From: Natronoarchaeum mannanilyticum
GTDB taxonomy: Archaea; Halobacteriota; Halobacteria; Halobacteriales; Natronoarchaeaceae
Reading direction: 5' to 3'
Assembly (NCBI RefSeq): GCF_039522665.1
Contig: NZ_BAAADV010000007.1
Coordinates: 62,001-126,000 of the forward strand
DNA: 64,000 bases
Shown here: piece after piece, positions 43,468 through 49,155 of the stretch
Layout of the letters: every line of letters starts with the position of its first letter
Numbering within the stretch: position 1 is the stretch's first letter
The notes under the pieces: generated by a model
What the model was told of the DNA's origin: nothing
Database searches by the model: none
Seen by the model: only the letters and a program-made list of their open reading frames with translations
Translations under genes and position numbers: made by a program

Positions 43468-43780
43468 TGATCCGTGGGTACCGACGGGGTAGTGAAAAAA
43501 CGGCGTCATCCAGATCGGATCGGCCCTCGAACGATTAGAGCGTCGACATCGGGACGCCGCGGAAGAACACCGAGTCCACCGGTCTCGAGGCGGTATTGGT
43601 CTCGTACCATCGCCTTGGCGTGAGCCCTCGGGGGCGAACGACGGACGGTGTCCAGTCCGTGCTGGAAGCACGGTTGACGTGATCTATACGCAACTTTCGA
43701 TCGCGTAACCGTGGATATCTAGATTAACAAACGGAGGTGTGAGGTCCACATTTAATACCCGCGGCCTCAACCCACCGACC
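43468..43780. other. Intergenic region between divergent trkH and usp
   Basis: No gene is visible in these 313 nt. The end nearest the usp gene has TTTAATACC at about 43751-43759, some 22-30 nt before its ATG, a likely TATA box. I saw no dyad or repeat of note in the rest. Confidence 0.45.
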
Positions 43781-44638
43781 ATGGAATCCGCCGACAGGGG
43801 CCTCGATATTGAGCACCCCGACGACGCGGTAGGCGGCGAGGACGGGACGCAGTCGATCCTCTATCCGGTGTTCGAGGACCACGACGCGTACACGTTTGAG
43901 ATCGCCCGCGATGTCGCCGAGGGCGCCGACGCCGGACTGATCGTCCTCGATCTCGTGGAGGACGAAGAGTCCCTCACGGACGAGGCCCACACCGTCGGCA
44001 AGCAGCTCTTGCGGTCAAAGCTCGACGAGCATCACGACGTCAGCGTCAGTTCGCTGATCGAGACGACGTCGGATCCCCCAGAGACCGTCGCGAAAATCGC
44101 GCAGGCGTACGACGTGCACCTGATCGTGTTCGATCGCCACACGCCGGACGCGCTCGTCGATTCGCTCCGGGGCGACGTCGCGGAGCGCATCAGCGACCGC
44201 GTCCACTGCGACGCGGTGTCCGTCGATCACGCGGGCGACGACCGCCTCTCGTCGATTCTCGTTCCGATCGCCGACGGCCCCCACTCCCCGCTCGCCGTGT
44301 CGGTCGCCGGCGCTCTCGGGAAAGGGGCGGACGCCGCCGTCGAACTGTTCCACGTGTCCACGGGTGGCGATACCGACCGAGTCGATGAACTCTTCGAACG
44401 CGCGCTCGCTCGGCTACCGGACGACGTCGACGCCGACACGTGGCACCTCGAACGCGCGGACGTCGCGGACGCCATCGTCGAACAGTCCGAGTACTACGAC
44501 GTGACGGCGATCGGAGAGCCACAGAAGAACCGGCTCAAGCGGTTCGTTCTCGGTTCGGTCACCGACGATATCAGCGATCGCGCGGACAACACGGTTCTCG
44601 TCTGTCGGCGAAGCGACGGCCAGAAATTCGATATTTGA
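43781..44638 (+). CDS. Tandem UspA-domain protein
   Basis: The 285-aa protein holds two Usp folds: about 20-150 (SILYPVFEDHDAY...DVHLIVFDRHTPD) and 158-280 (SSILVPIADGPHSP...). The second has a G-x9-GS element, GEPQKNRLKRFVLGS, while the first lacks a clear ATP loop. Usp proteins next to transporters often regulate them, so a role with the Trk K+ system that follows is plausible. It is 102 nt before trkA, possibly a separate transcript. Confidence 0.82.
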   Translation: MESADRGLDIEHPDDAVGGEDGTQSILYPVFEDHDAYTFEIARDVAEGADAGLIVLDLVEDEESLTDEAHTVGKQLLRSKLDEHHDVSVSSLIETTSDPPETVAKIAQAYDVHLIVFDRHTPDALVDSLRGDVAERISDRVHCDAVSVDHAGDDRLSSILVPIADGPHSPLAVSVAGALGKGADAAVELFHVSTGGDTDRVDELFERALARLPDDVDADTWHLERADVADAIVEQSEYYDVTAIGEPQKNRLKRFVLGSVTDDISDRADNTVLVCRRSDGQKFDI

Positions 44639-44740
44639 CCGCGAGTCAGAATCCATGTTCCCGACGATACTGAACCTCGTAGGCGCGCCAGAGCGAGAAC
44701 GGCATCTTTTCGTACTCCTCATAGAATACTGAATCCAATA

Positions 44741-45442
44741 ATGTACATCGTCATCGTCGGCGCCGGGAGCATCGGCACCCCTCTGATCGAGATCGCGACG
44801 ACGGGCGGCAACAACGTGGTCGTGATCGAAGAGGACGAACAGAAGGCGGAACGTGCGGCAACGGAGTACGACTGCCTGGTCCTCAACGACGACGCGACGT
44901 CAAAGGAGACGCTGCTCGACGCCGAAGCCGACCGAGCGGACGCGCTCATCTCCACGACCGATCAGGACGCGACCAACATCATGGTCAGCCTGCTCGCGAA
45001 GGAACTCGACGTCCCCCACATCGTCTCGGTCGTCCACAACCCCGATCACATGAACCTGTTTAGCCGGATTGGCGTGAACACGATGCAGAATCCACAGCGG
45101 CTCATCGCGGAATATCTCTACCGTGCGGTCAAACGCCCCACCATCGTCGATTACATGCGCATCGGCGAGGAGGCCGAGGTATTCGAGATCCGCGTCGGCG
45201 AGGAGGCGACCGTCGTCGGCAAGACCATCCAAGAAGCCGCCCAGGAGGGGCTACTCGAGGATGACATGCTCATCGTCGCGATCGAGCGGGAGGGAACGGA
45301 TCACCCGATCACCCCGCGCGGGAACACGGAAATTCACGCCGGCGACCTCGTGACGGTGTACTCCGGGCACGGCGCGACGCCCGAGGTGACGGACATGTTC
45401 GGCCACTTCGAGGATCACGACGGCTCGACGGACGAACGTTGA
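44741..45442 (+). CDS. trkA: Trk potassium uptake regulatory subunit TrkA
   Basis: The 233-aa protein has an RCK-N Rossmann domain (GAGSIGTPL; acidic VIEEDE for NAD(H)/ATP ribose) and an RCK-C domain (about 145-220, FEIRVGEEATVVGKTI). It forms the cytoplasmic gating ring of TrkH channels. One TrkA-N/TrkA-C unit is normal for archaea. It is 1 nt from the downstream trkH, so the two are coupled. Confidence 0.95.
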   Translation: MYIVIVGAGSIGTPLIEIATTGGNNVVVIEEDEQKAERAATEYDCLVLNDDATSKETLLDAEADRADALISTTDQDATNIMVSLLAKELDVPHIVSVVHNPDHMNLFSRIGVNTMQNPQRLIAEYLYRAVKRPTIVDYMRIGEEAEVFEIRVGEEATVVGKTIQEAAQEGLLEDDMLIVAIEREGTDHPITPRGNTEIHAGDLVTVYSGHGATPEVTDMFGHFEDHDGSTDER

Positions 45443-45443
45443 T

Positions 45444-47129
45444 ATGGCGCGAAATCGATCGGACGGTATAATTCCGACGGACCTCGCGATCATCGCGAGA
45501 GACGTCGGGTCGCTGCTCGCCATGGAGGGCGCGCTGATGACGTTCACGTTCGCCGTCGCGCTCCTGTTTACCGAGTGGTACCCCGCGCTGGCGTTTCTCG
45601 TCGCCGGCGGCGTCACCGCCGCGGTCGGCCTCGGCGCTCGACGAGCGTTCGCCGACGCTCCCAATCCGCGGATGAAACACGGGATGGTGATCGCGGCCGC
45701 GGGCTGGTTCTGCGTCGCCGTTTTCGGGGCGATCCCGTTCCTCCTGTCGGCGTATCTGACGCCGGCGGAGGCCATGCAGTCGTACGTCCTCTCGGCGCCC
45801 AGTCCCGAGGACTACGAGGCGGTCACCGTCTTCGGGATGCAGTCGCGCTCCAGCCTGGTGTACTTCAGGAACCCGCTGCACGCGATGTTCGAGAGCATGA
45901 GCGGCTGGACCGGCTCGGGGCTGACGATGGCGGTCCACGAGCCGACGCTCCCCCGCGCGATCCAGTGGTGGCGCTCGCTGATGCAGTGGGTCGGCGGCGT
46001 CGGCGTGATCGTCCTCACGACGGCGATCCTCGCCCGCCCTGGCAGCGGGAGCTACGCGCTGTACCGGAGCGAGGCCCGAGAGGAGAAGATCCACCCGAGC
46101 ATCATCGACACGGTCCAGACGGTCTGGAAGATCTTCGTGCTCTACACTGCACTCGCGGTCGTCGCGATGTTTGTCGCGATCTCACTGTCGGACTACGGTT
46201 CCCAGTTACCGACGTGGCAAGCCTTCTGGCAGGCGCTCAACCACGCGATGACGGGGCTATCGACCGGCGGGTTCTCCGTCACGGACAACTCCATCGGCAC
46301 GTACGACTCGACGCTCATCGAGACCGTCCTACTGCCGATCATGACCCTCGGCGCGATCGCGTTCCCGATCCACTACGGCATCCTCGCGAACCGCGACACC
46401 AGCCTCCTTTGGGAGGATCTCCAGACACGGTGGCTGTTCGTGCTGTTCGGCGCCGGCGTCGTCGTCCTCTCGCTCCAGAACGCGGTCGCCGTCACCGAGG
46501 TGTTCGACCCGACCGACTACGGGGGATTGCAGGCGGTCGGCCTGTCGGCGGCCCAGACGACGGCTATCCGCGATTCGGTGTTCCAGTGGATCAGCGCCCT
46601 CTCCTGTACGGGCTTTCAGTCGTCGTCGATCGGCGGCTGGAGCGACGCCGGAAAGTTCGTGCTCACGCTGCCCATGGTGATCGGCGGCGCCGCCGGGTCG
46701 ACCGTCGGCGGCATCAAGATCATCCGGGCGTACACGATCGGCCGCGGCATCGTCTGGCAGTTCGCGAGGGTGTTCCTCCCCGAAAGCGCGGTCGTCACGG
46801 CGACGATCGACGGCCGCACCCTCTCGCGCAACGAGATGGAACGAGAGTTCAGCGAGGCGGCGATCGTCAGCCTGCTGTGGATCGCACTACTCGTCGCCAG
46901 CGCGATCGTCCTGGTGAACGTCGCCGGCCCCGACTTCGGTCTCGCTGATGCCGTCTTCGAGGTCGCCAGCGCGCAGGGCAACGTCGGCCTCTCCTCAGGG
47001 ATCACCGGCCCCTCAATGAACCCCTTCGCCGAGTCCATGTTCGTGTTCAATATGTGGATCGGCCGCCTGGAGATCATCCCGGTGCTGGTGTTCGGCCGTT
47101 CGCTAATCTACGGGCTTCACCCGCAGTAA
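45444..47129 (+). CDS. trkH: TrkH-family potassium uptake subunit (2)
   Basis: The 561-aa protein is a more divergent TrkH. Pore segments are SGWTGSGLTM, GLSTGGFSVT, LSCTGFQSSS and QGNVGLSSGIT. The third, with CTGF, and the fourth, lacking GxGF, differ from the other two TrkH proteins. It is longer than they are because of an N-terminal extra segment and the loop EDYEAVTVFGMQSRS. It forms an operon with trkA and would be the main partner of this TrkA. Confidence 0.92.
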   Translation: MARNRSDGIIPTDLAIIARDVGSLLAMEGALMTFTFAVALLFTEWYPALAFLVAGGVTAAVGLGARRAFADAPNPRMKHGMVIAAAGWFCVAVFGAIPFLLSAYLTPAEAMQSYVLSAPSPEDYEAVTVFGMQSRSSLVYFRNPLHAMFESMSGWTGSGLTMAVHEPTLPRAIQWWRSLMQWVGGVGVIVLTTAILARPGSGSYALYRSEAREEKIHPSIIDTVQTVWKIFVLYTALAVVAMFVAISLSDYGSQLPTWQAFWQALNHAMTGLSTGGFSVTDNSIGTYDSTLIETVLLPIMTLGAIAFPIHYGILANRDTSLLWEDLQTRWLFVLFGAGVVVLSLQNAVAVTEVFDPTDYGGLQAVGLSAAQTTAIRDSVFQWISALSCTGFQSSSIGGWSDAGKFVLTLPMVIGGAAGSTVGGIKIIRAYTIGRGIVWQFARVFLPESAVVTATIDGRTLSRNEMEREFSEAAIVSLLWIALLVASAIVLVNVAGPDFGLADAVFEVASAQGNVGLSSGITGPSMNPFAESMFVFNMWIGRLEIIPVLVFGRSLIYGLHPQ

Positions 47130-47310
47130 GCGTCCTGGACCCGACGGCCAGTTCGACGACGCATGAAGCTATCGCGTAGCGTGGCGAACTGTCGCCGGCA
47201 ACCAGTACAGACATCCCACGCGAGCACACAGTTAGGATCTGCGCACGACCGATGTACAACTCGTCACTTCGAGAGGACTCTGCGCTGGACCGGAATGGTC
47301 CACCGGAGCC

Positions 47311-48807
47311 ATGAGGATCCGCGTCGACTGGCGCACCAGCTGTAGCCTCGTCGGGACGGTCCTCAAGTGGCTCTCGGTGCCGCTCCTGCTACCGCTCGCG
47401 CTCGCCGCGTACGAAGCCGAGGACGTCGTCCCGTTCCTCCTGACGATCGCCGTCACGGTCGCGGTCGGAACGCTCCTCGAACGGCTCACCGACGAGCGGG
47501 ACCTCGGCAACCGGGAGGCGTTCCTCATGGTTTCGCTCACGTGGCTCTCGGTCGCGCTCGTCGGCGCGATCCCGTTCGTCGCGGCGGGCGAGGGGGCGCT
47601 CGCCCACCCGATCAACGCGCTGTTCGAGAGCATGAGCGGCATCACGACCACGGGCGCGACCGCCGCCGTCGACTTCTCGGTCCACTCGCGGGCGATACTG
47701 CTGTGGCGTCAGCTCATCCAGTGGCTCGGCGGGCTGGGCATCCTGATTCTCGCGACCGCGATCCTCTCGCAGCTCGGCGTCGCCGGCGCGCAGCTCATGG
47801 AGACCGAATCGCAGACTCGAAACGTCAACCGGCTCACGCCGAAGATCTCGAACACGGCGCAGCTCCTGTGGAGTCTGTACATCGGGCTGACGCTCCTGCT
47901 GATCGGGATCCTCTACGGGCTCGGGCTAGTCGGCGCCGCGCCGAACATGACGCCGTTCGACGCCGTCGCCCACGCGTTCACCACCATCTCGACCAGCGGG
48001 TTCTCGCCCCGCGGGGAGAGTCTGGGCGCGTTCGCGCCGATCGTCCAGTGGACCGTGACGGTATTCATGGCGATCGGCGCGACGAGTTTCGTCCTGATCT
48101 ACCTGGTCCTGCAGGGCGACTTCGAGCGCCTCCGCGAGAGCGACGAGTTCCGGTTCTACCTCGGCGTTCTGGCGTTCTTCAGCGTCGGCGTCGTCGCGAT
48201 CCTCTTCTCGGACGGGACCTACGCGGGCGACGTCGAGCGGACGATCCGCCACGGCGTCTTCCAGGTCGTCTCGATCACGACCACGACGGGCTACGCGAGC
48301 ACGGACTTCAACGTGTGGTCCTCGCCCGCCAAGCACCTCCTCTTTATCTGCATGTTCATCGGCGGAATGGCCGGGTCCACGACCTGCTCGATCAAGGCGC
48401 TGCGCTGGCTGATCGTTCTGAAGGGGTTCCGGCGGGACCTGTTCGTCGCCAGCCACCCCTCGGTCGTCAAGCCGGTTCGCCTGAGCGGCGACGTCGTTGA
48501 CGAGCAGACGATCCGCGACGTCTACGCCTACACCCTGATCAGCCTCGTCTTTTTCATCGCCACCACCGTCTTCCTGGTGTTCGACAGCTCCCGCGTCGGC
48601 TTCCAGCTCACCGAGTTCGAGGCGCTGGGCGCCGCGGCGGCGACGTTCTTCAACATCGGTCCGGGGTTCGGGGTCGCCGGCCCCTACGAGACCTACGAGG
48701 TGTTCCCCGAGAGCACGAAGGTCGCGATGATCCTCCTGATGTGGATCGGCCGGATCGAGATCATCCCGGTGCTGGTGCTGCTGACGCCGTCGTACTGGCG
48801 GTCGTAG
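47311..48807 (+). CDS. trkH: TrkH-family potassium uptake subunit (3)
   Basis: The 498-aa protein has four pore loops: SGITTTGATAA, TISTSGFSPRG, TTTGYASTDF and NIGPGFGVAG. In the second loop Ser replaces the first Gly seen in its paralogue (TMPTGGF). MRIRVDWRTSCSLVGTVLK at the N-terminus parallels the TrkH at 41932, so these two arose by duplication. It lies 181 nt downstream of trkH(2) on the same strand. Confidence 0.92.
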   Translation: MRIRVDWRTSCSLVGTVLKWLSVPLLLPLALAAYEAEDVVPFLLTIAVTVAVGTLLERLTDERDLGNREAFLMVSLTWLSVALVGAIPFVAAGEGALAHPINALFESMSGITTTGATAAVDFSVHSRAILLWRQLIQWLGGLGILILATAILSQLGVAGAQLMETESQTRNVNRLTPKISNTAQLLWSLYIGLTLLLIGILYGLGLVGAAPNMTPFDAVAHAFTTISTSGFSPRGESLGAFAPIVQWTVTVFMAIGATSFVLIYLVLQGDFERLRESDEFRFYLGVLAFFSVGVVAILFSDGTYAGDVERTIRHGVFQVVSITTTTGYASTDFNVWSSPAKHLLFICMFIGGMAGSTTCSIKALRWLIVLKGFRRDLFVASHPSVVKPVRLSGDVVDEQTIRDVYAYTLISLVFFIATTVFLVFDSSRVGFQLTEFEALGAAAATFFNIGPGFGVAGPYETYEVFPESTKVAMILLMWIGRIEIIPVLVLLTPSYWRS

Positions 48808-48858
48808 CGGCTGTGGAAAGGAGATAGAAGTGCAACTATAGCGTTTGAAATCTAGAAG

Positions 48859-48872
48859 TGCGCCGGCCGGGA
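48859..48872 (-). repeat. 14-bp copy of tRNA-Gly 3' end
   Basis: TGCGCCGGCCGGGA is identical to 49085-49098, the 3' acceptor end of the tRNA-Gly gene in the same orientation, 226 nt downstream of it. This looks like an att-type duplicate. Confidence 0.6.
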
Positions 48873-48979
48873 CCGAGCGAACGCGAAGCGTTCGCGAGAG
48901 TCGGAACGGCTTCGCCGTTCCGGGAGTTCACCGCGCGGAGCGAGGTGACCGTCGGTCGGCAAACGACCGCAGGGAGTGG

Positions 48980-49000
48980 GCCGACCGGGATTTGAACTCG
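48980..49000 (-). repeat. 21-bp near-copy of tRNA-Gly T-arm/3' end
   Basis: The sequence matches 49088-49108 of the tRNA-Gly gene at 19 of 21 bases, same orientation. It includes GGGATTTGAAC (the T-loop on the minus strand). Confidence 0.6.
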
Positions 49001-49043
49001 ATGGCGAGACTCGCTGGCGCTCGTCTCGCGTAGTTCAAATCCC
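48987..49043. repeat. Inverted repeat of T-arm-like sequence
   Basis: Perfect 12-bp arms GGGATTTGAACT/AGTTCAAATCCC are separated by 33 nt that contain an inner GCGAGAC/GTCTCGC pair. Each arm is a tRNA T-arm sequence, one per strand. Confidence 0.75.
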
Positions 49044-49084
49044 GCCGTCCCGCAGATGTCTCTCACGTCCGTTCGAGACAATCA

Positions 49085-49155
49085 TGCGCCGGCCGGGATT
49101 TGAACCCGGGCCATGAGCTTGGAAGGCTCAGGTCCTACCACTAGACCACCGGCGC
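49085..49155 (-). tRNA. tRNA-Gly (anticodon UCC)
   Basis: The 71-nt gene folds as a standard cloverleaf on the minus strand. Acceptor GCGCCGG pairs with CCGGCGC, with discriminator A. The D-arm has GGTCTAGTGGTAGGACC, the anticodon stem-loop is TGAGC-CTTCCAA-GCTCA (anticodon TCC), and the T-arm is CCGGG-TTCAAAT-CCCGG. CCA is not encoded. It reads GGA (and GGG) codons. Confidence 0.95.

Follow-up and report, generated by a model that had tools for sequence, protein, structure and literature searches.

Background

In integron arrays, tandem cassettes of variable content, each ending in an oriented palindromic site, are found beside a fixed primary site (attI × attC). REP sequences are short, oriented extragenic hairpins that are non-autonomous and mobilised by RAYT transposases; to our knowledge they are neither bound to tRNA genes nor flanked by copies of their target. 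CRISPR loci and casposons duplicate a repeat with each new insert, and casposons target tRNA 3′ ends. Within the archaea, integrons have been reported in MAGs of nine phyla, in an article whose main text holds no words starting with tRNA, halobacter or haloarchaea (PMC9668308). Haloquadratum walsbyi carries PATEs, MITEs and small mobile repeats (SMRs), which are gene-free palindromic or inverted-repeat mobile elements; in the sections of the article that deal with them, PATEs and SMRs are stated to make no target duplication (PMC3119063). The att site of the halovirus SNJ2 consists of 13–14 nt of a tRNA 3′ end, according to the att-site passages of PMC8371274.

The arrays described here, which lie behind tRNA genes of Halobacteria, share with integrons the tandem cassettes at a fixed primary site, the palindromic ends, the variable content and the one-way hairpin. 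Unlike in integrons, the primary site is a tRNA gene, the core of the units is tRNA sequence, no gene was seen in the units and the locus in our window has no integrase match. The unit ends show a palindrome and one orientation and would, on the integron model, be candidate recombination sites. As with REPs, the hairpins are short, oriented and apparently non-autonomous, but they are bound to tRNAs and flanked by target copies. Duplication of a repeat with a new insert recalls CRISPR arrays and casposons, whereas the present arrays are also found in genomes without a Cas1 match. The Haloquadratum elements are likewise gene-free palindromic or inverted-repeat elements of a haloarchaeon but, in the passages of PMC3119063 that describe them, are not linked with tRNA genes or with copying of the target's own 3′ end. 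In haloarchaea the SNJ2-type integrases, too, take short tRNA 3′ ends for their att sites (att-site passages of PMC8371274); the betapleolipoviruses, however, are viruses of ~15–17 kb and carry no inverted T-loop copy in the ends examined. A published description of these units was not found in searches covering open PMC text, and we file the arrays as a variant of tRNA-targeting non-autonomous mobile elements that we did not find described.

The array behind tRNA-Gly(UCC)

The window, the whole stretch of DNA analysed here, comprises 64,000 nt from Natronoarchaeum mannanilyticum, the genome of which (G000; 3.57 Mb in 10 contigs) is assembled to 95.75% completeness. Within it, tRNA-Gly(UCC) is flanked by two TrkH genes on one side and by a methyltransferase on the other. 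Genes for Usp, TrkA and the two TrkH proteins stand in one row on the plus strand at window positions 43739–48807 (Pfam). Two units can be delimited downstream of the tRNA (Table 1).

Table 1. Parts of the tRNA-Gly(UCC) array, in window coordinates
Feature	Positions	Strand	Basis or remark
tRNA-Gly(UCC), array anchor	49085–49155	-	ARAGORN; Rfam RF00005, 71 bits
Unit 1, leader module A, 41 nt, stem GTCTC..GAGAC around GAACGGACGTGA	49044–49084	-	sequence, segmentation; like leaders at other tRNAs
Unit 1, T′, inverted copy of tRNA nt 54–63, GGGATTTGAA	49034–49043	-	within 13-nt inverted arm 49032–49044; edge profile
Unit 1, hairpin module B, CTACGCGAGACGAGCGCCAGCGAGTCTCGCCATCGA	48998–49033	-	similar hairpins behind Glu, Gly, His and further tRNAs
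Unit 1, end: direct copy of tRNA nt 53–73, GTTCAAATCCCGGTCGGCCCA, 19/21	48977–48997	-	
Unit 2, 118 nt, kind without T-loop copy: several short hairpins, then the tRNA's last 14 nt	48859–48976	-	
Unit 2, hairpin with perfect 9-nt arms, CGGAACGGCTTCGCCGTTCCG	48902–48922	.	sequence, fold
Unit 2, hairpin with perfect 8-nt arms, GCGAACGCGAAGCGTTCGC	48877–48895	.	sequence, fold
Unit 2, end: exact 14-nt copy of tRNA 3′ end, TCCCGGCCGGCGCA, 14/14	48859–48872	-	

A preliminary description of this locus had listed two copies of the tRNA 3′ end in the same orientation, and both were reproduced, at 108 nt (19/21) and 226 nt (14/14) downstream. Its list of direct copies was thus correct, while an inverted copy at 49032–49044 was absent from it. 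This copy matches 48986–48998 at 13/13 positions, the two bracketing hairpin B, so that the middle "copy" at 48977–48997 is one arm of a palindrome; inverted-arm matches at the locus are 13/13 and 12/12. Folded as single-stranded DNA, 48840–49090 has a z of -3.26 and folds better than 200 of 200 shuffles. Stretches resembling unit 2 were seen by eye behind a Gly tRNA of a related genome (G008) and behind Asp of G000, units without a T-loop copy having been identified by eye and not by systematic count. The in-window pattern is weak when considered in isolation: allowing up to 2 mismatches, a 13-nt core has 3 matches in the window, a number reached by 7 of 100 shuffles. By itself this count is not beyond chance, whereas the comparison across tRNAs is.

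Copies of the tRNA's own 3′ end downstream of tRNA genes

Searching the genome of the window with a 251-nt stretch of the locus returned further places, several of them right behind Asp, Glu, His, Gly-CCC and Pro tRNAs. In G000 alone, 24 of 43 RF00005 matches repeat their own 3′ end within 400 nt on the downstream side, and 1 of 43 on the upstream side, the threshold being at least 15/21 or 16/16 positions.

For a wider comparison, 200 tRNA loci were taken from nine genomes of the family (G000 to G008) with ARAGORN on bacterial settings, under which some tRNAs are missed and some doubtful ones added. The set holds 44 loci from G000 and, from the matches listed, 29 from G002, 28 from G004, 30 each from G006 and G007 and 29 from G008; the remainder, again among the matches listed, are Gly only (3 from G001, 3 from G003 and 4 from G005). 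Loci with less than 250 nt downstream, or without GTTC/ATTC near the 3′ end, were excluded from locus counts and unit parsing. Within 450 nt downstream, the tRNA's own 3′ end recurs with at least 17/21 matches at 89 of the 200 loci, the other 111 being without such a copy. If a perfect match to the final 13 nt is accepted as well, the count is 102/200, and the same test applied upstream gives 1/200.

At a threshold of at least 18/21 within the same distance, the own 21-nt 3′ end recurs downstream of 115 of 235 loci, a set made up of the 200 family loci and 35 class-level loci that were picked for carrying the palindrome. The corresponding controls over the 235 loci gave 4 hits upstream, 1 with the 3′ end of a foreign tRNA and 0 in shuffled downstream sequence. 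Chance as the source of the copies is ruled out by this comparison across tRNAs.

Unit architecture and edges

The typical order of elements is the tRNA, a leader A, the inverted T-loop copy T′ (about nt 54–62), the hairpin B and a direct copy (T) of nt 53–73. A stricter parser recovered 138 units with T′, B and T, which come from 80 loci of the family set (200) and 31 of the class set (35). The edge profile drawn from them consists of 142 comparisons, a few of the units being counted twice, and the parser thresholds force high identity inside the copy windows, not outside them. Across nt 53–73 identity to the tRNA is 0.87–1.00. On the 5′ flank of the copy it falls within four positions, from 0.68 through 0.48 and 0.46 to 0.15–0.32. 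The sequence after the nt 73 copy is 0.34–0.56 identical to the sequence after the tRNA, which is above chance because leaders often start alike. T′ is the complement of nt 54–62 at 0.89–1.00 and of nt 63 at 0.73; the adjoining one or two positions are at 0.51–0.61 and those farther out at 0.08–0.42.

Not only the core of the units but also the inverted arms are made of tRNA sequence, and they follow the tRNA at which they lie. Two Ala isoacceptors (loci L039 and L040) differ by one acceptor base, and their units differ likewise on both the inverted and the direct arms. Similarly, the Gly-UCC acceptor variants of G002/G004 and G006/G007 are mirrored in the host species' own copies. The Phe unit of G006 is an exception to this tracking, its arms not matching nt 62 of its tRNA.

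Hairpin orientation and decay of the two copies

Out of 137 units, 132 could be classified for the orientation of B and 5 were left unclassified. The orientation relative to the tRNA is the same in 128 of the 132; the other 4 hairpins were flagged as inverted, two of them clearly. A freely invertible B is not supported by this distribution. In 108 of 138 units the strand in tRNA sense has a better fold than its complement. Across the 33 members of one B family, changes fall on both sides of the stem and pairing is mostly retained; as the stem split was chosen to favour pairing, weight is placed on the both-sided changes and not on a percentage.

The two copies of the T-loop end do not change together. 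In the 30 columns at which the T of a unit differs from the tRNA, T′ has the tRNA letter in 25, the letter of the unit's own T in 1 and neither in 4. Conversely, T′ departs from the tRNA in 77 columns, 50 of which are at its two end positions, and T shares the change in 1 of the 77. With departures so rarely shared, T′ and T look like two copies taken separately from the tRNA, each decaying on its own. For the same reason, neither quasi-palindrome correction nor selection for continued T′–T pairing is supported.

These data bear on a possible function of the units in the tRNA 3′ trailer, as RNA or DNA structures that selection would keep for processing, for termination or as decoy hairpins. 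The both-sided changes in B, its one-way orientation and the better fold of the sense strand are what such a role would lead one to expect. The absence of covariation between T′ and T argues against it, as do the many tRNAs that are free of units, the differences between orthologues and the Rfam search of the window locus, in which only the tRNA, and no other family, reached the gathering score. On balance we consider a trailer function fairly unlikely.

Distribution within Halobacteria

Among 194 genomes sampled from the class, 155, representing 58 of 65 genera, contain the exact T′..T signature, GGATTTGAA-N22-50-GTTCAAATCC, and the reversed-pattern control gave 0 in every row of that sample. 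In a phylum sample of 148 genomes the signature matched 19 of the 24 belonging to the same order and 0 of the 124 others, a scan in which the exact T-loop letters may miss other archaea. A narrow hairpin pattern searched in named genomes returned 3 loci, in Halobellus rarus, Haloarcula salina and Haloarcula amylolytica.

Thirty signature loci of the class were examined for their surroundings. At 27 of them a tRNA on the same strand precedes the signature by 69–320 nt, with at least 18/21 matches in 25 cases and with 14 and 15 in two. Of the remaining three, L137 is a chance match inside a reading frame, and an att-like end precedes both L132 and L154. The preliminary description had named a dispersed repeat, with the same fragments near many non-tRNA loci, as the finding that would overturn it; such a random dispersed repeat is ruled out here, the units sitting behind tRNAs apart from the three exceptions.

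Module exchange and turnover

Tandem arrays of at least two units were found at many loci. Many other tRNAs have no units, and presence or absence also varies between orthologues in related species. Behind Gly-UCC there are three units in G008 and none in G003. Comparison of the tRNA-Gly/trkH neighbourhood in relatives, proposed in the preliminary description, draws on two genomes: among the nine, the neighbourhood was found in G000 and G008 only.

Leaders and hairpins are distributed differently. Leaders at least 85% alike make up 28 of 532 same-tRNA pairs and 9 of 8,648 different-tRNA pairs, versus 47 of 532 and 85 of 8,648 for hairpins B at the same level, the comparison leaving out units with a very short or long A or a short B. 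In all 85 of the 85 different-tRNA pairs with like hairpins, A is less than 85% alike, and 9 of the 532 same-tRNA pairs combine A at 85% or more with B below 65%. Similar hairpins are thus shared between different tRNAs more often than similar leaders are. An example of a shared leader with differing hairpins comes from G000, where two tRNA-Asp genes lie 1.6 kb apart (contig C2, 28029–28101 and 29616–29688): the leader is shared at 77 of 78 positions, the hairpins are only 51% alike, and the break falls at T′ and T. A close pair of tRNA-Asp genes is also found in G002, G004, G006, G007 and G008.

Leader orders and leader duplications were judged by eye and not systematically counted. Among the 26 isoacceptors available from both G000 and G008, four (Ser-TGA, Asp, Phe and Ser-CGA) have a leader that stands first in one genome and later in the other, and extra leaders or units adjoin the tRNA in one of the two (by eye). 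Val-TAC of the same genomes differs distally, and in Ser-GGA and Ser-CGA of G006 and G007 the order of leaders is swapped around a like hairpin (both by eye). Addition of cassettes next to the tRNA would therefore fit four tRNAs and not three of these comparisons, again by eye. The match of the copies to the tRNA shows little age gradient with array position, at 19.2/20 for position 1 (111 units), 19.0 for position 2 (23) and 17.0 for position 3 or beyond (4). Turnover of array content is clear; strict polarity is not.

One filled and one empty site can be compared directly: Gly-CCC carries one 104-nt unit in G007 and none in G006, with near-identical sequence beyond. Deletion between short direct repeats has been reported in haloarchaea, namely in Haloquadratum (PMC3119063), so that filled/empty differences are equally explicable as deletions. 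Such deletions also speak for an enzyme-free origin, in which template switching, slippage and homologous or microhomology-mediated recombination would build, exchange and delete the units. The arrays of Arg-CCT, Phe and Ser-TGA in G007 fit such an origin, with successive units that have identical leaders (~49–54 nt) and different hairpins (by eye) and hence an exact leader duplication; so do the swaps of B, which lie between short identical arms. Against it speaks the recurrence of the same signature in 58 of the 65 sampled genera, and the placed inverted T-loop copies with defined edges, together with the preferred orientation of B, suggest a directed step. We therefore regard an origin by such processes alone as unlikely.

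The three G007 arrays can also be read in terms of a Cas1 integrase acting as in CRISPR adaptation or in casposons, with the block T–acceptor–A–T′ as the repeat and B as the spacer. The block with the identical leader stands on both sides of different hairpins, Cas1 is present in G007 (as in G003 and G004), and casposases target tRNA 3′ ends. However, Cas1 (PF01867) was not found in G000, G002, G006 and G008, all of which bear arrays, and the B hairpins form related families, unlike the diverse spacers of CRISPR. We hold a Cas1-driven origin to be highly improbable.

Integrases, viruses and plasmids

In one genome of the class (G168), tRNA-Val(CAC) is separated from its array by an element of ~10.5 kb (L224:8609–19150). 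A tyrosine recombinase gene stands beside the far, att-like end of the element, and a 1276-aa reading frame within it may encode a methyltransferase/restriction protein. In a second genome (G084) an att-like end and a recombinase gene precede an array; the 20 kb examined do not reach the matching tRNA, and we infer that here too an element separates the tRNA from its array. PF00589 is below the family cut-off in both recombinases, and the G168 protein additionally has PF02899, above its cut-off. The G168 enzyme is 32–39% identical to halovirus integrases, including those of SNJ2, HRPV9 and HHPV4. A tRNA-like end is recognisable in the SNJ2 and HHPV4 records (12/13 and 13/13), the att site of HRPV9 not being clearly located. 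T′ (8 of 9 positions) is absent from six end pieces of these three viruses, ~2.9 kb in all, which indicates, on this small sample, that such viruses share the target and do not carry the units.

The window gave no PF00589 match in its 64 kb; the nearest lies ~1.6 kb beyond its left edge and 51 kb from tRNA-Gly(UCC). G000 has 11 PF00589 matches, 9 of them above the cut-off and all outside the window. A tyrosine integrase match on contig C7 (402519–403133) lies ~1.4 kb from the 3′ end of tRNA-Arg(UCG) (404549–404623) and may belong to an ordinary integrated element. Searches by tblastn with two integrases gave non-significant matches only, with a best E of 0.47 in the window and of 0.62 within 1.5 kb of tRNA-Gly(UCC) in the nine family genomes.

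Mobile-element sequences were also searched for the units themselves. A scan of IMG/VR with one pattern returned 24 loci, none with haloarchaeal-type units on our reading. Six of these (L111, L112, L118, L119, L123 and L125) have two inverted tRNA-like 3′ ends (GCATGGATTTGAACC..GGTTCAAATCCATG) separated by a short spacer; they look like an analogue of independent origin, on contigs that we take to be Bifidobacterium prophages. With the 226 nt of the window locus, blastn matched 13 phage records at E 3–9 and 3 plasmid records at E 0.05–0.2, all weak and short. The best plasmid match (NZ_CP024045.1:58825–58873, Natrarchaeobaculum) covers 48 nt of the query at 84% with an E of 0.05, and no feature is annotated there.

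The preliminary description had taken the tRNA 3′ end for a used integration site and the sequence between the copies for leftovers of one or two deleted elements, that is, of ordinary viruses or plasmids with the tRNA as attB. Its first half is borne out in that SNJ2-like integrases do use such ends in relatives: an SNJ2-like element lies at one in G168 and, by inference, in G084. The length of the SNJ2 att site (13–14 nt; att-site passages of PMC8371274), moreover, corresponds to that of the 14-nt copy. Of the marks of an integrative-element scar, the 226-nt locus shows the direct 3′-end copy downstream and gave no significant match to an integrase, the gene that was to be looked for as a check. 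The second half is unsupported. The same gene-free modules occur at many isotypes across the class with arms matching their own tRNA, which independent deletions are not expected to leave behind, and the virus ends and integrase searches above speak against it as well. For the general case a leftover-element origin is already hard to hold, and we judge it quite improbable.

Proposed origin of the arrays

The arrays have a constant architecture with defined edges, match their own tRNAs, exchange modules, carry an oriented hairpin and arms that decay independently, and are spread across the class. We put it at an even chance that the window locus is a two-unit member of such widespread haloarchaeal, tRNA-anchored, gene-free arrays and that these consist of non-autonomous hairpin cassettes added by site-specific recombination. 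Under this proposal, hairpin cassettes would be inserted repeatedly at the T-loop/acceptor end of the tRNA by a recombinase acting in trans, putatively either a tyrosine integrase (for example SNJ2-like) or an enzyme that reads a folded single strand. Every insertion would restore the tRNA and leave a copy of its 3′ end downstream; the copies would then decay, and units might be lost by recombination between the 21-nt direct repeats. A direct copy starting at nt 53/54 would fit strand exchange at the T-loop.

Cassette recombination is favoured by the copies of the own tRNA downstream, which are scarce upstream or with foreign ends, and by the copy edges at nt 53 and 73. It also draws support from copies that mirror the host's tRNA variants, the filled and empty Gly-CCC sites, the four leader comparisons of G000 and G008, the G007 units with identical leaders, the differing distributions of A and B, the orientation and stem changes of B, the agreement of T′ with the tRNA, and the SNJ2-like element between tRNA and array. 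Against it, swaps of B alone need more than the insertion of whole A–B units. Counting against it as well are the virus searches, which gave no unit, the swapped leader orders, the distal difference at Val-TAC, the weak age gradient, the resemblance of the sequence beyond nt 73, the Phe unit of G006, the 111 family loci without a copy and the alternative reading of filled/empty differences as deletions. A more specific form of the proposal, which we offer tentatively and think somewhat doubtful, is that the arrays constitute a separate type of genetic array within Halobacteria: the tRNA would be an attI-like primary site at which a hitherto unrecognised recombinase inserts folded hairpins with direct and inverted copies of the T-loop end, and gain, loss and exchange of modules would follow an integron-like grammar.

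Implications

For annotators, repeats of tRNA 3′ ends in these genomes are by themselves no proof that a virus or island was once present. The arrays add further att-like copies, which bears on why tRNA genes are frequent integration sites. If cassette recombination is the true origin, much of the sequence just downstream of the haloarchaeal tRNA genes examined would be a patterned array system with turnover, and it would become testable how a recombinase inserts hairpins flanked by copies of its own target.
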